Source of the DNA: a virus
Virus record (IMG/VR): IMGVR_UViG_3300010296_000074
Location: 1 to 25,389 of that record
DNA: 25,389 bases
Strand: one strand, 5' to 3'
Position numbers and translations under genes: made by a program. Under the pieces are notes generated by a model, which was given only the letters and a program-made list of their open reading frames with translations, ran no database searches and had not been told where the DNA came from. Of the stretch, positions 3,183 to 16,806 are shown one piece after another. Within the stretch, counting starts at the first letter, position 1. Each line of letters opens with the position of its first letter.

Positions 3183-3797
3183 ATGGCAAACTTTTCTGCT
3201 GCCTTCGGGTATGATCTTTACTTGATCCCCCTCAAGGCGGAATCTGTCGACACTTCTTTCACTGGCGTGACGGCAGGCGTGGATGCTTCCGCTACCGCCT
3301 TCGTCGACACCACCGCTATTATCCCCGCTGACGAAAAGATCACCTATGCTGACGGTATCTTCTCCATCGGCGCCACTCCTGTCGCTGAGCCCACCGACGG
3401 CACCATGCAGCCTGTGCGTCTGACTGGACTCACAAGTGCTTCCCTTGAGACTGATACCGGCTCTGAGGACATCTACACCTACGACGACGAAGTCAAGGGC
3501 TTCAACCAGGCTGTGGCTACGACCAAGTCCTGGAGCATGTCACTGGCTGGCGTCGCCGACTTTAAGGACGCTGGCTATCAGATCCTGCGCCTTACCGAGC
3601 AGAACACCGTGGCCGATGGCCTCCGTGTAAAGATCGCTCGTGTGGGCCCCACGGGCACCGTTGAGACCATTTACGGCTACGGCACTCTGATGGGCTACAG
3701 CGAGTCCAACGAAGTGACAAGTATCGTTTCCTGGGAGTGCTCCGTTAGCGGCTACGGCGCCTACGTCGTTGAGCTCGACGAGAACGCTGGTAATTAG
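3183..3797 (+). CDS. Major tail tube protein
   Basis: A 204-residue protein of the right size and position (terminator-tube-tape order) for the tube subunit that stacks as hexameric rings around the tape measure. The C-terminal half reads as a gpV-type tail tube fold: LTGLTSASLETDTGSED (80-96), the strand KSWSMSLAGVADFKDAGYQIL (116-136), a helix, then KIARVGPTG and a closing strand SWECSVSGYGAYVVEL (185-200). Codon choice is visibly cleaner than in neighbours (many GTC, GGC, TAC, AAG codons), which I read as adaptation to high expression. It has its own promoter-like motif, a structured leader and a downstream terminator. No Shine-Dalgarno precedes the ATG. The stop is amber TAG (3795-3797), followed by an in-frame extension. 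Confidence 0.8.
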   Translation: MANFSAAFGYDLYLIPLKAESVDTSFTGVTAGVDASATAFVDTTAIIPADEKITYADGIFSIGATPVAEPTDGTMQPVRLTGLTSASLETDTGSEDIYTYDDEVKGFNQAVATTKSWSMSLAGVADFKDAGYQILRLTEQNTVADGLRVKIARVGPTGTVETIYGYGTLMGYSESNEVTSIVSWECSVSGYGAYVVELDENAGN

Positions 3798-4049
3798 TTG
3801 ACTGGAGGTATTGCAACCACCGATACCTTCGTGACTACGACTGCATTCGACGCTGGAGCTTTTGCTACTGCCGTCGCAGTCACCCTCTCTGGAAATGCAA
3901 CTGGCACCGTCGATCTCGACGGAGCTGCCGAAATTTCCGCAGTCAACATCACCTCTGGTGGTACTGGCTACACAGTGGGCGACACAGTTATTGTCAACGA
4001 AGATGGCGGACTTGGCGCTGGTTCGTTCCGAGTTGCCTCTATCACCTGA
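3798..4049 (+). CDS. In-frame C-terminal extension of the tail tube protein beyond an amber stop
   Basis: The frame of the tube gene continues for 83 codons after TAG 3795-3797 to TGA 4047-4049, before the transcription terminator. Independent initiation would have to use TTG 3798 directly abutting the stop, with no Shine-Dalgarno. Codon choice matches the tube gene. The segment is Gly/Thr/Val rich, predicted beta, with ITSGGTGYTVGDTVIV at about residues 50-66, a G-x-G-Y-x-x-x-D-T-[VI] element seen again in the protein at 12693. Occasional readthrough would give a 288-residue tube protein with a surface domain, comparable to the minor extended tube proteins other siphophages make by frameshifting. 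TAG serves as an ordinary stop elsewhere here, so genome-wide recoding is unlikely. A decayed fusion is the alternative. Confidence 0.6.
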   Translation: MTGGIATTDTFVTTTAFDAGAFATAVAVTLSGNATGTVDLDGAAEISAVNITSGGTGYTVGDTVIVNEDGGLGAGSFRVASIT

Positions 4050-4052
4050 AGC

Positions 4053-4073
4053 CCGTAACCGCAATACTTACGG
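4053..4073 (+). other. Small hairpin before the terminator
   Basis: CCGTAA (4053-4058) pairs with TTACGG (4068-4073) around a 9-base loop, a few bases after the stop of the tube extension and 12 bases before the terminator stem. It may protect the 3' end or assist termination. Confidence 0.4.
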
Positions 4074-4085
4074 CGAAGAATATTC

Positions 4086-4113
4086 AGAGGGGCTTAATCA
4101 ACCCCTCTTTTTT
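4086..4113 (+). terminator. Rho-independent terminator after the tail tube unit
   Basis: AGAGGGG (4086-4092) pairs with CCCCTCT (4102-4108) around a 9-base loop and runs into six Ts (4108-4113). It separates the abundantly needed tube protein from the tape measure, needed in few copies per virion. Confidence 0.85.
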
Positions 4114-7100: not shown

Positions 7101-9610
7101 CCGAGGCCGCCAAGCAGTCGGAGATCGCAGCTGAGGAAAATCGCTACCAGCAAAGGATTACGAACCTAGAAAACGAAAGAGAAGCACTAGTCGCTGGTCT
7201 TAATTTTGAATTAGCCAGGATCGAGACGGTCGAAACAGCTCAAACCAACTCTTTTAATCGGAGAAAGGCTGAAATTGAGGCTGAAATTGAGGCTAACAGG
7301 GCTAAATATGATAACTTTATTTCTGAAATTGATCGCCAAGCAGAGGTCGAAGAAAGGCGTCACGAAAAAGCTCTCGCACTTATCGCAGCTGAGGCAGAAG
7401 CATATGGCAGTCTTTACAAAGAGGCGCAGAGCGAAATCAATATACTAGAGGAGGCGGAGAGAGCTCGTCATGAGGCGAGGATGAATGAACTCGAGATCGA
7501 GGAACAAAGAAGCAATAGGTATTACGATAATCTTTTGAATCGACTGCAACAGCAAAAGGTCGAGGAAGAGCAGAAGGCTCAGGCGAGGATTAAGCAGATT
7601 GAAGAAGAAAGGAAGAAGGCAGAGTTCCTGAAACAACAAGAACTAGAGAGAATTGAAGAGCAGAAAAAGAAAGAAGAAGAGAAACATAAGCAACGCATGG
7701 AGAACCTTGACGAAGAAAAAGACAATACCAAAGATAAGTTCGACAGAGAGGCTGAAGCAATGGACCTTGTAGAGCAGCTTAGAATAAGACAGGAAAGGGC
7801 TAGGTTAGAGAGGATTGAGGCACAGTTAAAGGATATCAAAAGAAGAACTGACGACGAAATCAGGGAAATCGAGAGGGGATATGAGCAATGGAAGTACTAC
7901 AATGATCTGCAGATGGAAGCACTCAAGAAAAAGATTGATAGAATGAAAGAGGTCAAGGACGCATCGGAGCAAGGCACAGATCAAATCAAAAGTCAGGCTA
8001 CGGCAACTGGTCAGCTTGCTGGTAACGCCTCGCAAGCGGCTACGGCGCTGTCTGCTCAGGCCAGAGCCCAGCGAGAGCTGAATGCAGCCAACGCTGGTGC
8101 AGGCTCGGCTGGTGGTCCTACCATTACGGCGAGCGGAGGCCCTGCTGCCAGGGCGAGCGGGGGCCCTGTGTCCGGTGGTTCACGATACACGGTTAACGAG
8201 CTTGGGAAAGAGGCATTCCTGAGTGCTTCTGGTAAGCTGAGCATGATCAAAGCTCCTTCTTATGGTACTTGGAAAGCTCCTTCGAGCGGTACCGTTATTC
8301 CGGCACACTTGACGAGTGAGCTTGACATCCCCGCAACTGGAATCAATATTAAAAACATCAAAGCTCCTTCTTATGGTACTTGGACAGCTCCTTCGAGCGG
8401 TAACGTTATCCCGAAAAACTTGACCAGTGAGCTTGACGTCCCCGAAACTGAAGTCAATGCTAAAAACATTAACACTTCACCAACCTTTACTTCAAAACAC
8501 CTGACCAGTCAACTTGGCGTTCCCACAACTGAAATTAATACTAAAAACACCAACACTTCACCAACCTTTACTCTAAAGCACCTGACCAGTCAGTTTGGGG
8601 TTCCCACAACTAAAGTCAATGCTAAAAACACTAACACTTCACCAACCTTTACTTTAAAGAACCTGACCAATGAGCTTGGCGTTCCCACGACTGAGGTTAA
8701 TGCTAAAAACACTAACACTTCACCAACCTTTACTCTAAAGCACCTGACTAATGAGCTTGGCGTTCCCACAACTGAAGTCAATACTAAAAACATTAACACT
8801 TCACCAAACGTTATCCCGGCATACTTGACCAATGAGCTTGGCGTTCCCACAGCTGAAGTCAATACCAAAAACATTAACACTTCACCAACCGTTACTCTAA
8901 AACACCTGACCAGTGAGCTTGACGTCCCCACAGCTGAAATTAATACTAAAAACATTAACACTTCATCAACCGTTACTCTGGAACACTTGACCAATGAGCT
9001 TGACGTCCCCACAGCTGAAATCAATACTAAAAATATTAACACTTCGCCAACCGTTACTCTGGAACACTTGACCAGTGAGCTTGGTGTTCCCGAAACTGAA
9101 ATTAATACTAAAAACATTAACACTTCACCAACCTTTATTCTGGAACACCTGGCCAGTCAACTTGGCGTTCCCACAACTGGAATCGATATTAAAAACATTA
9201 ACACTTCACCAACCGTTATCCCGGAACACCTGACCAGTCAAATTGGCGCTCCCGCAACTGGAATCGACGTTAAAAACATTAACACTTTACCAGCCGTTGC
9301 TCTGGAACACTTGACCAGTCAACTTGACATCCCCGCAACTGGAATCGACGTTAAAAACATTAACACTTCGCCAACCGTTATCCCGGCATACTTGACCAGT
9401 CAACTTGACATCCCCGCAGCTGAAATTAATATTAAAAACATTAACACTTCACCAAGTGGAATGGTTAGTGCCATCTCTAACGCCAGAAGCAACGTAAGAC
9501 AAGGCGACAATATTAGCAATAGCGTAACTATCCAGTCAGCTCAGCCACGCCAAACCGCCAGCGATGTCATGGTCCAATTGGCTAAACTTAAGAGGGTTAG
9601 GTATTCTTGA
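4157..9610 (+). CDS. Tail tape measure protein
   Basis: An 1817-residue protein. In order: an N-terminal helical region; a tape-measure core at about residues 185-315 (MEVLDIQLQAFTGGADEAR, then TPFNLQQIANAGKIMMAFGVE and FAIQGIPIWDEM) matching the conserved phage tape measure domain; a hydrophobic stretch (about 410-480) with several potential membrane segments; a very long charged coiled coil (about 495-1290, rich in Glu, Arg, Lys, Ala); an ASGGPVSGGSRYTVNELG segment (about 1330-1350) common near tape measure C-termini; tandem repeats (1389-1772); and a C-terminal tail ending in VTIQSAQPRQTASDVMVQLAKL. It sets tail length and is ejected during DNA delivery. By the usual rule of about 0.15 nm per residue the tail could approach 270 nm, less if the C-terminus does not span the tube. 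The start is TTG, supported by the upstream motif and preceding terminator. Confidence 0.92.
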   Translation: MSNLVFTVGVDTKNATESVNTFFNTFGQAAQNADNKLKDVFGKPIKKQIELAFENGQFISKQLDAAAKEARKIELAAKAIKNEFAQTPKELKLQLSLLRQARETTRKFEADGKTVTEDWKKLTAAIAQGQEELKKLTATAGELKDKKPAQDMTAQFLKANLAAKAIEATFKLLVGSVQDLVSTAAEMEVLDIQLQAFTGGADEARAALAEFAAIAAGTPFNLQQIANAGKIMMAFGVETDIAKRATKDLAVVATATGGDLNNLARNLGQIAAQGQAYTRDLTQFAIQGIPIWDEMSKITGKNVNELKKLATEGAISFELVNGALKNLAADGGAYAEIVKNYQNTIKGQTAQLEANFQLLSKTALDTAKKIAEAFGIDLLAPFKLLNAAIKNVAENLPGMIANAIEMFQRFSPVIATVVAGLIAMFGPQVVAAFAGVVAKIVLITAKTFALIVAQTKLLLLMGPKGWAIIAIAAGAAALAIGKTAKTLQGAKEVAQKFQREMDAARKRAEELANGADEAADSGQNLMDTFSKGDKLEASIEKAGKALKKMGEDAKVVARETKLAKQEVEDKARVAVRALEDEKQAIKEAGQADKDRYQDAKREIKAKRDTAIRAIEEEKAAAQRAHNAVMSNLDAQASKVQAELASLSRSYDAAVSRAQASADAASARMDKRIARAEAAANAAQARQERKQQEEKAAYDAEISRLKRIEAEAKKSYDAEIRRLDELRSLEERRQDAYLRDIKERKSAAKGLYENAQRELESLMAKEEELFNQSIALLEEQARKAKETANAKISAIDKEIQAQRDLTSEIKNLIETRYDGEIEKLNQRRDALERQYEEEKIQIQSVIDDIETRYDNELRRIDEIQAASGAAYDAEIAALRELTPAEEKLKQLKKEKLIEQANNLALSEEERLSAQAQLDDMERQKAIAEVRARQQEAEAGFEAQKQAILAQQTEALKAQEQLLAQRASFYEQELLAIEAATEAAEAAKQSEIAAEENRYQQRITNLENEREALVAGLNFELARIETVETAQTNSFNRRKAEIEAEIEANRAKYDNFISEIDRQAEVEERRHEKALALIAAEAEAYGSLYKEAQSEINILEEAERARHEARMNELEIEEQRSNRYYDNLLNRLQQQKVEEEQKAQARIKQIEEERKKAEFLKQQELERIEEQKKKEEEKHKQRMENLDEEKDNTKDKFDREAEAMDLVEQLRIRQERARLERIEAQLKDIKRRTDDEIREIERGYEQWKYYNDLQMEALKKKIDRMKEVKDASEQGTDQIKSQATATGQLAGNASQAATALSAQARAQRELNAANAGAGSAGGPTITASGGPAARASGGPVSGGSRYTVNELGKEAFLSASGKLSMIKAPSYGTWKAPSSGTVIPAHLTSELDIPATGINIKNIKAPSYGTWTAPSSGNVIPKNLTSELDVPETEVNAKNINTSPTFTSKHLTSQLGVPTTEINTKNTNTSPTFTLKHLTSQFGVPTTKVNAKNTNTSPTFTLKNLTNELGVPTTEVNAKNTNTSPTFTLKHLTNELGVPTTEVNTKNINTSPNVIPAYLTNELGVPTAEVNTKNINTSPTVTLKHLTSELDVPTAEINTKNINTSSTVTLEHLTNELDVPTAEINTKNINTSPTVTLEHLTSELGVPETEINTKNINTSPTFILEHLASQLGVPTTGIDIKNINTSPTVIPEHLTSQIGAPATGIDVKNINTLPAVALEHLTSQLDIPATGIDVKNINTSPTVIPAYLTSQLDIPAAEINIKNINTSPSGMVSAISNARSNVRQGDNISNSVTIQSAQPRQTASDVMVQLAKLKRVRYS
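8420..9472 (+). repeat. Tandem 81-bp (27-residue) repeat array in the tape measure gene
   Basis: Thirteen units, with the recurring (t/c)TGACCA(G/A)T at 8420, 8501, 8582, 8663, 8744, 8825, 8906, 8987, 9068, 9149, 9230, 9311 and 9392, exactly 81 bases apart throughout. A longer founder-like unit begins at 8309, 111 bases upstream. The protein unit reads roughly LTSELDVPTAEINTKNINTS followed by PTVTLEH. Units differ by scattered substitutions but no indels, so the frame and length are constrained. The founder copies carry APSYGTWxAPSSG, which looks like the ordinary C-terminal tape measure segment from which the array expanded. Confidence 0.95.
9598..9609 (+). promoter_or_regulatory. Candidate phage late promoter inside the tape measure 3' end
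   Basis: TAGGTATTCTTG covers the last codons and stop of the tape measure gene and ends 18 bases before ATG 9628, the spacing shared by the motif family. It would give the distal tail genes their own transcript. Confidence 0.5.
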
Positions 9611-10388: not shown

Positions 10389-12653
10389 ATGGCGTACTTA
10401 GTAACCTCAACAAGGGCTTCCCTTCTAACTGTAGGAGGGGTTGATTACACCGAGAATCTAATCGACTGGGTCTGCAGTGATACCTCTGCTTATAAGAACG
10501 GTCTTATTCAAACGACTGGCCAGCTAACTCTAGCAACTATTCCAGGCACATCCTTAGAGGACTACGACAGGAATATGTTCAAGAGAGGGCAAAAGGTGAT
10601 TCTTGATATTACTTACCCAGATGGAACGACAGAAAGACATCCAAGAGGTCTTCTGTATGTCGTCTCGGCCGCTTATATCCCAGAGTCTGAGGCTATTGAG
10701 ATTGAAATAGGTTGCAGGATCGCCATGGCAGCTCTGATAGACAATACAGACGCTCTTGTATCGCTTCCAACTGTAACCTTGGATCCAGCAAGAAAGAATG
10801 ACTATCAAAACATTTCTGCAGCTCTGGCCTCAGAAGGTAAGGCCGCATATCAAGACAATAATGGGGACCTTCAAGTTGTTTCCTTCTTTGGAGGCGACAA
10901 CACAAGCTCATATGATCCAGGTGAATGGGTTTCAGTACTGGGTGGGACGACCTTGTCGGTTTCGCCTCTTGCTGGAGCGTCGCCATTACCTGACGGCATC
11001 AGGCTGTCATATCAAGTACCTGCAGATCTTGACTCCATCGTAGACGAGGAAGACCAGGCGGATCAGGATTCCCCTAATAAGGTGCAGATCGACGAGGTTG
11101 ACTCTTACTATTTTCTAACATATCCAGCTACTGTCTATGTCAGAACAGGTGATGGAGATTTACCTACTGGTGTTAGCGATGGCTCCATCCCCACCTCTGT
11201 AGACTCTGGGTGCGGAAACACCCCTGACAAGCCAGGGGATAATGGCCAAGGTAGTTGCAACGACAACTACACCCTCAGTCAGACTCCGCTCGTTATTCCA
11301 GCCTTCAGGAGACAGGTTTCCCGAACAGAGTACAAAGGGCCGAGTGGTCAGGTCTCATCTAGGTATAGCGAGGTGCGTGGGCCTGCAATTGAAGCTAACC
11401 AACAGTACTACTCAGATAAATTCGCCTATTGCCGATACACTTGGGCTACAGCTTGTCAGCCCAATGGCGGTTGTCCGACAGATGGTACTGAAGAGATTCT
11501 GCTAGGCTATACGCAGCAGACTAATTCATACGGCCCTGCCTCTCAGCTACTGTCAACTGTCACAGACACGTACATCCCTACGCTAGCTGCAGCGCAGCCA
11601 TTCGACTGGAGGTCGGGAGTCGTTAACGGGGCGCCTCAGAACTTCACCGAGCTCAGTACAACTGAGATGTTTAGGAGTCAGCGTCGAGTTGAAGAGTTCT
11701 CTCGGGAAGGAAACACAAATGTAACAGTTACAACTGTATATACGAGTAGCACTGCTCGTCAAAGTGGAATCAGCTCTGGCAACATCGACGCACTTGCAGG
11801 TCAAAAAACCAAGGAGATTAGAAGGTCTACGACTATTACTGGTAACTCCGTTTTACCTGATACAATTAACTCCGTAGAAACTGCCACGGAAGAAAAGGTA
11901 ACATTGATCAGAATCTTCGGCACCTCTTATATCACTCCCCCTCCTGAAGCGGGTCCTTACTACATGGAAGAGAGTGTTCCAGTACCAGCTCTCTACGACA
12001 CTCAAGGCCAGATAGAAAATTTTATAGAAAAATACTCTGCGACCTTGGCCTCTTTTGTTCGAGGTGACGCCCTTGGTCTCCAAATTGGAGAAACGATGAG
12101 GAAAGATATTGCGAGTAATTGGAGACCTGGAATGCCATTCAGGTATTGTGATCAATATAAGAATAGAATTTCAGCGCTAAGGATGGACGCCACGAGCTGG
12201 AGTGTCAATAACACGGAGTCTCTTCTTGTTACTTCTGGTATTTGGATTGGATTTTCTGACGGCACTCTTTCTCTGGGCTCTAATCTTGTTGGAAATTCAA
12301 CACCTTCAATGGGCGAGGGAGAAGTTGTCCCTCCGACTGGCACAGTAGAGGCTCCCAGTGTTAACGGCGAAAACAACGTATCCCCTGGGGCTTTAGCTTG
12401 GGAGGTTGATATCAATATCTATACTGAGGTATCAGCTGAAGCCTTCGGAGCGGATGGAGTAGTGCCTCCAATACCTTCTGGCGAAGAGGCGGAGATAGAT
12501 CATCATTCGACGTTTATGTGTTACATCAGGGGCTATGTGGTGGGAGCAGGAAGCCTCTCCTCTCCTAACGGCAATGGAGGTATTCCTTTGGAACTGGGGG
12601 GAAGCTTACTTGTTAGTAGTCCGACGATTATCGATTCAGACATATTTGCCTAA
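10389..12653 (+). CDS. Large tail tip/baseplate hub-like protein
   Basis: A 754-residue protein starting at ATG 10389 with a good Shine-Dalgarno (GGAGG at 10376-10380), three bases after the previous stop. The N-terminal 150 residues are beta-rich and resemble the first domain of hub-type tail proteins (a TxDxTENLIDW-like opening, then GQKVILDITYPDGTTERHPRG near 68-88). A central part (about 260-420) has several cysteines and Ser/Gly/Thr-rich loops. A C-terminal domain follows a PP/Gly-rich linker near 645-665. No lysozyme or peptidase catalytic motif is evident. By position (tape measure, small tip protein, this, fibres) it should be the central tip structure onto which fibres dock; the role is inferred. 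Confidence 0.6.
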   Translation: MAYLVTSTRASLLTVGGVDYTENLIDWVCSDTSAYKNGLIQTTGQLTLATIPGTSLEDYDRNMFKRGQKVILDITYPDGTTERHPRGLLYVVSAAYIPESEAIEIEIGCRIAMAALIDNTDALVSLPTVTLDPARKNDYQNISAALASEGKAAYQDNNGDLQVVSFFGGDNTSSYDPGEWVSVLGGTTLSVSPLAGASPLPDGIRLSYQVPADLDSIVDEEDQADQDSPNKVQIDEVDSYYFLTYPATVYVRTGDGDLPTGVSDGSIPTSVDSGCGNTPDKPGDNGQGSCNDNYTLSQTPLVIPAFRRQVSRTEYKGPSGQVSSRYSEVRGPAIEANQQYYSDKFAYCRYTWATACQPNGGCPTDGTEEILLGYTQQTNSYGPASQLLSTVTDTYIPTLAAAQPFDWRSGVVNGAPQNFTELSTTEMFRSQRRVEEFSREGNTNVTVTTVYTSSTARQSGISSGNIDALAGQKTKEIRRSTTITGNSVLPDTINSVETATEEKVTLIRIFGTSYITPPPEAGPYYMEESVPVPALYDTQGQIENFIEKYSATLASFVRGDALGLQIGETMRKDIASNWRPGMPFRYCDQYKNRISALRMDATSWSVNNTESLLVTSGIWIGFSDGTLSLGSNLVGNSTPSMGEGEVVPPTGTVEAPSVNGENNVSPGALAWEVDINIYTEVSAEAFGADGVVPPIPSGEEAEIDHHSTFMCYIRGYVVGAGSLSSPNGNGGIPLELGGSLLVSSPTIIDSDIFA

Positions 12654-12692: not shown

Positions 12693-13427
12693 ATGACTAT
12701 TGCCGCCAAGATCTCTGCTACTGAGCTAACTGCACAGGTCACCAATCGCTTTGCGGATAGTTACTTTGAAGCAAGACTAATTGATGCATCTGGAACGACG
12801 TATATTCCTGGGGTTACCAGTGATGCTTCTTTTCTTGCATTCGAGTCACCAATTGGCACTGGGGGATATAAAAGAGCGATCATAAACTGGTCAGCTTCAG
12901 ATGTTCAGGCCTATTCCGACGATGGCGTGGCTCTGACGCAGAGAGCTGCAGTATTTGCTCAAGATGGTTCTGCTAATACGATCAATTTTTCTCATGTCGC
13001 CCTTGTTTGGAGCTCTGGTAACGCTTCTGGCGTAAGTGCTGTCTCTGGGGCTCCGGCCTCGGGTGGAGATGGGGTGTACAGCGGCCTTCTCCCCACTTCT
13101 ACTAGTGGCGCCGGAGTTGGTGCGACATTTGATCTTTCCGTTATTAATGGTGGAGTGAGTGCAGCCAACTACGCCGTTTCGATTAAGAGCCCCGGCTATG
13201 GATACTCCGCTTCTGATACCATCACAATATCCAATGCGGCCTTGCAATCAGCTGGGGTGACAACTGAAGTAACTGGCGACCTGGTGTTTTCGATAACGTC
13301 TGTAGCGACCTCTTCTGAAGCTGGTAGCATCCTTTCCGTGGCTCAGACTGCTAGCCCTGTTGTGGTCTCTGGCGGCAACGAAGCCGCCTTCTACTTTAAC
13401 CTTAAACAGTTTGGCTTTAACTCATGA
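12693..13427 (+). CDS. Tail/fibre-associated beta protein with a GxGYxxxDT module
   Basis: A 244-residue protein rich in Ser, Ala, Gly and Thr, without signal peptide or membrane segment. The N-terminal half (1-110) is beta-rich (AQVTNRFADSYFEARLIDASG); a Gly/Ser linker follows; the C-terminal part has FDLSVINGG then IKSPGYGYSASDTITI (about 168-183). That last element resembles the extension of the tail tube protein, and similar modules are known in structural proteins of marine T4-like phages. Its TGA overlaps the next ATG (ATGA), so it heads a four-gene coupled cluster ending at 14212. It is probably a baseplate or fibre-attachment protein; the specific role is unknown. Confidence 0.55.
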   Translation: MTIAAKISATELTAQVTNRFADSYFEARLIDASGTTYIPGVTSDASFLAFESPIGTGGYKRAIINWSASDVQAYSDDGVALTQRAAVFAQDGSANTINFSHVALVWSSGNASGVSAVSGAPASGGDGVYSGLLPTSTSGAGVGATFDLSVINGGVSAANYAVSIKSPGYGYSASDTITISNAALQSAGVTTEVTGDLVFSITSVATSSEAGSILSVAQTASPVVVSGGNEAAFYFNLKQFGFNS

Positions 13428-14241: not shown

Positions 14242-16806
14242 ATGAGAGATTATAATAAGTGGCTTGAGGATAACCTGCCAGAAAAGAACGACAAGAACTG
14301 GCTTAAGAATTGGAGAAGGACGTCAACTGAGGATCCAGCCTTAAGATTAGGAACACCTATTGACGAGATAATTTCGTTTACTTCAATAAGTAACGACGAT
14401 CCTACCCTCCTCAATCAAGTAACTAATTTTCGAGATCCAAGAAGTACATCATGCATTGGTCAAAGCGACTGTGCCGTTGGCTTTGCTTGCAAGGGTGGCT
14501 TCTGTGTACCTGCTGACACTGAAGATTCGACCAGCAGTGGTGGCTGTGGGACCGGAGGAACTGGCACTGATGACGGGTTTGGCTGCATTGAAGTGACGGG
14601 TACGGGTGGAGGTTGTACTACGGGTAATTGTGGGGACGATGGTTCAGGTAATCCTGGTGCTGTGGAGTACTGCTGTGGTGACTGGAAGTGTGATAAAGAT
14701 TTGGTTACAAATGAGCTTAAATGTGAATGCATCCCCTACAACCCTGGAACCTGTTCAACGGATAACGATTGCGCTCCAGGTTATATTTGCTCTGATGGGT
14801 ATTGTGTCTACGATTTCAGTGAGTGCGATGATGACACTGATTGCCCGGAGGGCTATTATTGTTCTGGGGGGTTTTGCCTCTTTGACTGGACTATCAACAG
14901 TTGCAATCAGGAATCAGACTGCGAAGAAGGATATATATGCATAGATGGCTATTGTGTCTATGATTACGGCGCCTGCAATAGCGACGAGCAATGCCAGAAC
15001 GGCGAGGTATGCTACGGAGGTTTTTGCACCTCAGGCTGTAGAAGTGATAACGAATGCGGAGAAGATGAAGTTTGCAGGAACGGGTTCTGTGTTCCTGGAT
15101 GTAACTTCAATGAAGAATGCCCTACCGGCGAGGTCTGCGTAGGAGGATTCTGTTATCCCGGTTGTGATAATACTAGCGACTGCGAAAGCGGTCAAACTTG
15201 TGTGGATGGTTATTGTCAAACAACCTGCTCAGACAATAGCGACTGCCCTCCTGGTACGAAATGCGTCAATGGTTTCTGCGTATTCGGATGTGACGACAGC
15301 AGCGACTGTGAAGAAGGAGAAGTATGCCTTGGAGGTTTCTGCTACAGAGGCTGTGACGAGAACACTACATGCCCGTCTGGCACAACCTGTATCAACGGTT
15401 ACTGCCTTGATTCTTGTGCTTCTAATGAGGAGTGCCCAGATGGCCAGGTCTGCGTTGGTGGTTATTGTGTCTTTGGCTGCAGAGACGACAACGATTGTCC
15501 AGAAAATTTTGAATGCGTGGACGGATTCTGCTACCCTTTGTACGAATCCTGCGTAGGTGATTACCAATGCAATGCTCAGGAACTATGCATTGGTGGTCTG
15601 TGTTTTCCAGGACCAAGGGATTGCACGTCTGACCTGGAGTGCGAAGAGAATGAGGTCTGCCTCAATGGAATTTGCACTCCTTATTTTGACCTACCTGACT
15701 GCGGCACATTAGATTTTACCGATTGCGACGCGGTTAACAATGCGCCTTTAAACTGCTTATTCCAGTCACTGGAAACCGTCTACAGTGACTGTTTTGATGG
15801 GCTTCAGAGGTGTGGTGATACTCTTCCTAACAAGGACGAAACTCAGCTCATTCCAGCTGGCGGCTGGCTTTATAAAAATAGTCAGAGCGATTGGCGGGTT
15901 TTCTGTTACGATAATACACCCCAAGACCCTATATGCCTAGGACCAAACCCTCCGCCAAACTGTCCGCAACCTCAAGTTCAGCAATGTAGTCAGTACTGCT
16001 CAGAGCGTGCCAGACTCGGGGAAGACCTTCCTGGCTGGTGCTCGAATAGCGTTATATGTTCAGAGTGTGAAACCTGTAACAATGTCTACTGCGTGCCTGA
16101 CGATGGCCCCTGCTACTGCCCAGAGTCAACCGTCAAATGCGGCGATTGCCAAGAATGCGACAAAGACTCTGGAGCATGCAGGGATAAGCCAGAAGAGAGT
16201 CAGACCTGCGTCAAAACATGCGAGGTTTGCCAGAGTTGCTCTCGCTATACTGGGACCGACTTTTATGGCTTTGATCCTGGCAATGATAACAGGGTTGTCT
16301 GCGCGAGAGGCGTCGTGGGTTACTATGATCAAAGAAGCCCATGTGCGGAGGCTATAAAATTAATCCAGGAAGAGTGCAAGCAAGAAGAAGAAGAAGAAGA
16401 AATTACTTGCGACAATGGAAGTAACATCAAAGACTGTGATTGCAGCTGCGATAAAGATTGCCCCAGCTGTTATAGCTGTAGCGAGGCTGACTGCACATGT
16501 GTTTACGATAACAGCTTGCCTGGCTGCAGTATTTGCTCTGAGGCAGACCTGGAATTTGGCAAACGGGTAACAACCGTAATACAGTTTAGACTTCTTACTT
16601 CAGAGACTGGCAGTCAATTTGGGACTTGGTTCACAAATGGAACCTTTAGTGTCTATGATTCTGGCGGAATTCTCCAGGCAGACTATGTCACCCCGTGTGG
16701 CACTCCTCTTTCCGAAAGTACTGGGCTCGTAGTTGCAGAGCACCCTGACTACGTCATCTCATCGGACGAGCCTTTTCAGGACTGCCGCCTCTGCGAGAAC
16801 GGCTAG
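14242..16806 (+). CDS. Giant cysteine-rich repeat protein of the tail/fibre module
   Basis: An 854-residue acidic protein with, by my count, over 100 cysteines. The N-terminal 65 residues are Cys-free and charged (KWLEDNLPEKNDKNWLKNW). One Cys repeat at about residue 71 is followed by a Gly/Thr-rich Cys segment (95-165), then fourteen repeats (171-478) of C-x5-C-x5-C-x4-C with a G[FY]C ending, eight spaced exactly 21 residues. A second Cys region with many CxxC pairs follows (about 580-770), including an E6 tract, and the C-terminus (775-854) is beta-like with few cysteines. The repeat resembles small disulfide knots of secreted proteins (EGF- or Dickkopf-like). There is no signal peptide, so disulfides would form after lysis, unless the cysteines bind metal. 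Location just before two fibre genes suggests a fibre or adsorption component. Stop TAG is followed by a second in-frame TAG three codons on. Confidence 0.7.
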   Translation: MRDYNKWLEDNLPEKNDKNWLKNWRRTSTEDPALRLGTPIDEIISFTSISNDDPTLLNQVTNFRDPRSTSCIGQSDCAVGFACKGGFCVPADTEDSTSSGGCGTGGTGTDDGFGCIEVTGTGGGCTTGNCGDDGSGNPGAVEYCCGDWKCDKDLVTNELKCECIPYNPGTCSTDNDCAPGYICSDGYCVYDFSECDDDTDCPEGYYCSGGFCLFDWTINSCNQESDCEEGYICIDGYCVYDYGACNSDEQCQNGEVCYGGFCTSGCRSDNECGEDEVCRNGFCVPGCNFNEECPTGEVCVGGFCYPGCDNTSDCESGQTCVDGYCQTTCSDNSDCPPGTKCVNGFCVFGCDDSSDCEEGEVCLGGFCYRGCDENTTCPSGTTCINGYCLDSCASNEECPDGQVCVGGYCVFGCRDDNDCPENFECVDGFCYPLYESCVGDYQCNAQELCIGGLCFPGPRDCTSDLECEENEVCLNGICTPYFDLPDCGTLDFTDCDAVNNAPLNCLFQSLETVYSDCFDGLQRCGDTLPNKDETQLIPAGGWLYKNSQSDWRVFCYDNTPQDPICLGPNPPPNCPQPQVQQCSQYCSERARLGEDLPGWCSNSVICSECETCNNVYCVPDDGPCYCPESTVKCGDCQECDKDSGACRDKPEESQTCVKTCEVCQSCSRYTGTDFYGFDPGNDNRVVCARGVVGYYDQRSPCAEAIKLIQEECKQEEEEEEITCDNGSNIKDCDCSCDKDCPSCYSCSEADCTCVYDNSLPGCSICSEADLEFGKRVTTVIQFRLLTSETGSQFGTWFTNGTFSVYDSGGILQADYVTPCGTPLSESTGLVVAEHPDYVISSDEPFQDCRLCENG
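14752..15675 (+). repeat. Fourteen-unit Cys-rich repeat, core period 63 bp
   Basis: Units start with Cys codons from 14752. The eight units from 14974 to 15477 are exactly 63 bp apart (14974 to 15415 spans seven periods); flanking units are 3-5 residues longer in their linkers. Each encodes C-x5-C-x5-C-x4-C with conserved G at the x-G-[FY]-C turn. One isolated unit lies at 14452-14505. The DNA is more diverged than the Cys spacing, indicating old duplication under selection for spacing. Confidence 0.95.

Follow-up and report, generated by a model that had tools for sequence, protein, structure and literature searches.

Putative amber readthrough of tail-tube genes with a long-range kissing RNA signal in a family of cyanophages

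In the viral DNA analyzed here, a stretch of 25,389 nucleotides that we refer to as the window, a tail-tube gene with a single start very probably gives rise to two products through amber readthrough, with a bipartite nucleotide context around the stop codon and a long-range kissing RNA as the putative signal. This reading rests on comparison of sequences, with no protein or reporter data. The phages that share this junction between tube and extension are a family that infects marine cyanobacteria, and it appears that part of the ribosomes translating their tube gene continue past its stop codon.

The tube gene occupies positions 3183 to 3797 of the window (plus strand, as for all features below) and encodes 204 amino acids. 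Its product matches PHROG 38654 ('tail protein') in a profile comparison with an E value of 1.7e-91, falls just under the cut-off for Pfam Phage_tail_2 (PF06199; E 1.2e-4, 22.6 bits, cut-off 23.8) and is 63-75% identical to the 'major tail protein' of the Synechococcus siphophages S-CRES1-3 and S-CBS2 (gp019 in the latter); by these similarities it is a phage tail tube, or major tail, protein. As the initial annotation proposed, the gene ends in TAG at 3795-3797 and the same frame remains open for a further 83 codons (3798-4046), the putative readthrough extension, up to a TGA stop at 4047-4049. The end of the extension is adjoined by a hairpin, CCGTAA-CCGCAATAC-TTACGG, at 4053-4073 and then by a terminator-like hairpin with a T-run at about 4086-4113, again in agreement with that annotation. 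The terminator is evident by eye in the sequence and is absent from the output of our plus-strand scan because its loop exceeds the limit of the scan.

TAG had also been described as an ordinary stop elsewhere in the window, and we find that after the TAGs at 2110, 16806 and 20415 a second in-frame stop follows within 2-5 codons, so an open extension of 83 codons is exceptional here. TAG terminates 20 of 102 genes in S-CBS2 and 4 of the 20 counted genes of the window, the tube gene included. These counts bear on the possibility that TAG has been reassigned to sense, in the manner of genetic code 15, in which case the extension would be present on every subunit. Phages with TAG reassigned exist (PMC9523058), and UAG is the very codon that is proposed to be read through; however, the use of TAG as a stop in both genomes, the near second stops behind the three other window TAGs and the lack of tRNA genes leave genome-wide reassignment scarcely credible, and we reject it. 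Neither the window nor the S-CBS2 genome, which is complete, yielded any tRNA gene. In S-CBS2 there is therefore no phage suppressor, and without one the decoding of UAG depends on host tRNAs. The missing phage suppressor also counts against readthrough, as does the presence of UAGU instead of UAGC in the window and in 4 of the 63 other TAG loci.

Searches of IMG/VR, phage records and a genome collection, made with the tube protein alone, yielded 115 distinct tube 3' ends. Sixty-four of these end in TAG, and an in-frame extension follows in all 64; the remaining 51 end in TGA or TAA, and an extension follows the stop in none of them. The prediction that relatives would show a decaying frame or a stop lost at random if readthrough were wrong thus met with the opposite outcome, as TAG and extension are perfectly co-conserved across the 115 distinct tubes. 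Extensions are 81-95 codons long, or 185-187 codons where two modules stand in tandem behind the TAG (loci L147, L255, L265, L271-L275 and L314), and 2 of the 64 are cut by the end of the contig. When the alignment of extensions was used as a query against viral contigs it proved too degenerate, returning 10 loci. The search of cellular genomes for tube relatives gave one contig, L314 (DGOV01000074.1), which is binned in a Proteobacteria metagenome-assembled genome and is probably a cyanophage contig in that bin.

On a tree of the tube built without its last residues, presence of the extension changes state about 10 times, at least four of them on well-supported branches, and at each change stop and extension switch jointly. 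The nearest pairs set AGC-TGA against AGT-TAG and AAC-TGA against AAT-TAG, with the extension inserted between stop and terminator, and the relatives that lack an extension have a similar hairpin and T-run directly behind the tube stop. Extensions have also been exchanged between diverged tubes (in one example, extension dS is 0.12 and tube dS 1.27), and TAG always came along.

Comparison of synonymous and non-synonymous change, which had been proposed as a check, gave a median pairwise dN/dS of 0.37 for the extension and 0.19 for the tube over the same pairs, demonstrating from the nucleotide changes that the extension is under purifying selection at the protein level. AlphaFold2 predicts that it forms an all-beta domain (mean pLDDT 97.9), and a tube-extension fusion is predicted as two confident domains joined by a linker. 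Its nearest relatives are S-CBS2 gp020 and the C-terminal domain of the Syn5 structural protein gp58. Residues 93-168 of gp58 match the extension profile with 65.9 bits, and in BFVD the two domains superpose with a TM score of 0.82 at 36% identity; as judged from profile and predicted models, they are homologous and alike over the whole domain. Syn5 gp58 has been tentatively assigned to the capsid surface (PMC9207676); it has its own capsid-associated gene and involves no readthrough, whereas the extension lies behind the amber stop of a tube gene. A search of solved structures with the extension gave no convincing match, and only viral predicted structures matched.

The extension had been thought to share a GxGYxxxDT module with the window protein encoded at 12693-13427; the motif match is present, but it is only weak, at 11 bits. 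A GxGY-type module resembling the extension (23.6 bits) also occurs within the lambda-like tail tube of Pseudomonas phage PseuP_224 (L315:1075-1800). In a distant, PSS2-like tube (L220:2501-3469), a related module (27.9 bits against the extension) is fused in frame without a stop, so a tube can accommodate such a module. This natural fusion combines tube and module as the extension-bearing tubes do, but it is constitutive, with no amber stop and with no kissing hairpin in the sequence past its own stop. Elsewhere in the window, towards the 3' end of the tape-measure gene, an 81-bp (27-codon) unit occurs about 13 times in tandem, with a 111-bp repeat ahead of it (8421-9455), and the virion gene region encodes an 854-residue cysteine-rich protein with six DUF7107 stretches (14242-16806), which is unusual in a phage.

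The nucleotides around the amber stop are constrained beyond the stop itself. The base at -1 is T in 64/64 extension-bearing tubes, making T plus TAG (3794-3797 in the window) invariant among them, and in 14/51 tubes without an extension; AAT accounts for only 19% of Asn codons in tube bodies, in contrast to the invariant T. Past the stop there is a conserved spacer, YTG AYT GGR GG (3798-3809), that is constrained at third codon positions. Its first codon is CTG in 59/64 loci and TTG in 5/64; its third is GGA in 53, GGG in 8 and AGA in 3, whereas Gly is mostly encoded by GGT or GGC elsewhere. Downstream of the YTG, GGAGG is usual, 7-11 nt past the stop. When the whole of IMG/VR was scanned for exact matches to TTAGCTGAYTGGAGGYAT, 47 contigs were returned, of which 40 are the tube junction and 7 are unrelated and without an open extension.

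The same region could be read as the start of a separate small gene, re-initiated either at the CTG or TTG abutting TAG or at an internal start, given that a YTG codon stands invariably next to the stop, that GGAGG sits just past it and that GenBank places the start of S-CBS2 gp020 at an internal GTG. However, the abutting codon is in most loci CTG, a very poor start, so that the TTG which the initial annotation had named as the only start available to the extension is not a conserved one. The same annotation saw no Shine-Dalgarno sequence for the extension, and this extends to the relatives: an SD-like motif occurs within the final 15 nucleotides of the tube gene in 0/62. On these two observations we reject a start adjoining the stop. 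Among the 62 extensions that are complete, 29 lack any in-frame ATG, GTG or TTG up to codon 45, and start-like codons lie at scattered positions among the 62. With many extensions startless, start codons scattered and no Shine-Dalgarno sequence, re-initiation cannot explain the family. Neither does it have any need of TAG over TGA or TAA, of T at -1 or of the kissing helix described below, and the fold predicted by AlphaFold2 starts within the first residues of the extension. We therefore consider a separate gene very unlikely. In S-CBS2 (NC_015463), gp020 (12118-12354) is annotated as a separate 'structural protein' starting from the internal GTG. It covers the S-CBS2 extension minus its first seven codons; the extension of gp019 begins at 12097 by the present analysis, according to which gp020 is the readthrough extension of gp019. 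The annotation as 'structural protein' fits the presence of the extension in virions, which is indirect support and not proof.

The hairpin past the extension, whose presence had been noted but not its possible role, has a loop complementary to bases just past the amber stop, with strong covariation between the two. In the window, GTATTGC at 3808-3814 (+14 to +20 relative to the amber stop) is complementary to GCAATAC in the loop at 4061-4067, and 3806-3807 may add two pairs. All usable relatives have a hairpin after the extension's own stop, with a stem of 4-8 bp and a loop of 9 nt (53 loci) or 7 nt (8 loci), and the loop is complementary to +14 to +20 in 61/61 usable loci. When the two bases adjoining the loop are included, at least 8 of the 9 positions from +12 to +20 pair in 61/61 tube-found loci. 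The distance between stop-proximal site and hairpin is about 250 nt in the window and ranges from 250 to 560 nt; among loci with doubled modules, those checked (L147, L255, L265, L272 and L273) keep the kissing pair over about 560 nt.

Compensating variants of site and loop include GUAUCGC/GCGAUAC, GCAUCGC/GCGAUGC, GGAUUGA/UCAAUCC and GGGCUGA/UCAGCCC, as well as GUACUGA/UCAGUAC, GCUUUGC/GCAAAGC and GUUCUAC/GUAGAAC. The 7-bp kissing helix reaches 98.1% pairing over 37 distinct sequences, all of them with loops of 9 nt; 6/7 of its pairs have changed on either side, and 59 cells are compensated. Its covariation score is 0.698, compared with 0.250 for shuffled alignments (0/500 reach the observed value) and at most 0.09 when the helix is slid. 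In the hairpin stem 5/6 pairs covary too, so covariation is demonstrated in both helices. When loops were permuted among the 28 distinct site/loop combinations, the observed pairing was reached in 0/20,000 permutations. The hairpin served as the anchor of the covariation alignment, and kinship between sequences inflates tests based on shuffling; the argument for pairing nevertheless holds, because the compensated pair types are varied and hard to obtain by descent alone.

Among relatives without an extension no kissing hairpin was found, three regular-expression matches there being terminators. A scan of IMG/VR for the hairpin returned 30 contigs, of which 28 are the tube junction and the rest are unrelated; the hairpin-only matches L321 and L322 were set aside as belonging to an unrelated, collagen-like gene. 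A search of Rfam with the kissing element gave no match at E <= 1. To judge from these alignments, hairpin and stop-proximal site look like a bipartite kissing-loop readthrough signal.

Covariation also bears on whether the junction could be a seam at the DNA level used in cassette exchange, with TAG, T at -1 and the motif merely being shared boundary sequence. Near-identical extensions are found on diverged tubes, so the unit does recombine. However, the motif varies while compensatory changes preserve its complementarity to a loop far downstream, as fits pairing in RNA, and an extension under protein-level selection would still need a route to translation; a mere seam is barely conceivable as the explanation.

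Local RNA structure is a less consistent feature of the junction. In 40 representatives, the first ~70 nt past the stop are more stably folded than their synonymously shuffled counterparts (mean z of about -1.8 to -1.9), as compared with z of -0.65 to +0.26 for control windows further downstream. The window taken alone gives no significant signal in this comparison with shuffles, and structures differ between clades; we therefore rejected a single conserved local stem-loop as the stimulator. The kissing site shares bases with the local hairpin, which may therefore compete with the kissing helix or else serve as a switch.

The conserved stop context (T at -1, YTG and GGR) and the kissing helix are both present, as expected for programmed readthrough, and the initial proposal that readthrough is probable here is strongly supported by comparison, through the link between TAG and extension, selection on the extension, the lack of a usable start in about half of the extensions and the kissing helix. 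Under this proposal, most ribosomes would terminate at UAG and release the plain 204-residue tube subunit. A minority would insert a residue at UAG and carry on, adding a C-terminal tail of 84 residues that consists of the inserted residue and the 83-residue beta domain. The putative signal would have two parts: a stop context, with U preceding UAG and CUG or UUG following, and a pseudoknot formed at long range between bases 10 nt beyond UAG (8 nt with the two extra pairs) and the loop past the extension's stop. This distance past UAG is about that of the mRNA entry when UAG occupies the ribosomal A site. A helix there would slow the ribosome or disfavor release factor 1, letting a near-cognate host tRNA decode UAG; both the stimulation by kissing and the identity of the decoding tRNA are inferred. 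We likewise infer that the beta domain lies on the outside of the tail, in which a minority of subunits would be expected to bear a surface domain. The occurrence of readthrough is itself inferred, from sequence comparison alone.

Because the distal hairpin is placed past the extension's stop and close ahead of the terminator, readthrough may have to wait until the tube mRNA is almost fully made, and every ribosome that reads through may disrupt the signal for a short time. Taking these two features together with the rest, we think it likely that this family of dsDNA phages, with no suppressor tRNA of its own and on the ribosomes of bacteria, uses kissing-loop-driven amber readthrough to set the fraction of tail subunits bearing a surface domain. 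Natural readthrough signals on bacterial ribosomes are poorly defined. If the proposal is true, a kissing-loop signal acting over 250-560 nt would mean that termination on these ribosomes can be adjusted by RNA elements far from the stop. The proposal, directly testable with a small reporter, would also set right how a widespread cyanophage group is annotated, the extension now being missed or called a separate gene, and provide a compact bacterial system for stop-codon recoding.

As far as the searched literature shows, phages are known to add domains to tail tubes by frameshifting or by direct fusion. In SPP1, frameshifting extends tube subunits (gp17.1 and gp17.1*) at a ratio of about 3:1, and the extra domain is dispensable (PMC8718954); the Listeria phages PSA, A118 and A500 also make C-terminally extended major tail proteins by frameshifting, and bipartite recoding signals are discussed in the same work (PMC5009743). 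As in these phages, recoding is proposed here to give a fraction of tail-tube subunits a C-terminal domain. Unlike in the SPP1 type, the extension lies in the tube's own frame, which excludes an extension by frameshifting; it would be reached by amber readthrough with a long-range kissing RNA, and its domain is a gp58-like beta domain where theirs are FN3/Ig. In the RNA phage Q-beta, a structural protein is likewise extended by stop-codon readthrough, yielding the A1 coat extension, but the phage is an RNA phage and the codon is UGA, not UAG (PMC7764779). Our literature searches, which covered few subscription journals, turned up neither tail readthrough in dsDNA phages nor, for bacteria or phages, a readthrough element acting at long range.

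What appears to be new is a hairpin after the extension's stop with a loop complementary to stop-proximal bases, an arrangement so far coming from plant RNA viruses. In tombusviruses and luteoviruses, such as carnation Italian ringspot virus and barley yellow dwarf virus, sequence near a stop codon reportedly pairs with an element far downstream for in-frame readthrough. These are plant RNA viruses that use eukaryotic ribosomes and make polymerase or coat extensions in this way, and their readthrough-stimulating structures place an RNA helix near the ribosomal mRNA entry. The kissing element would work as theirs do; common ancestry with them is unsupported, in the absence of an Rfam match. Like them, the cyanophage junction joins in-frame readthrough, as proposed, to a stop-proximal site paired with a distal element (7 bp). 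Unlike them, it belongs to a dsDNA phage of cyanobacteria, its loop comes right after the stop of the extension, and the protein that would be extended is that of a tail tube.
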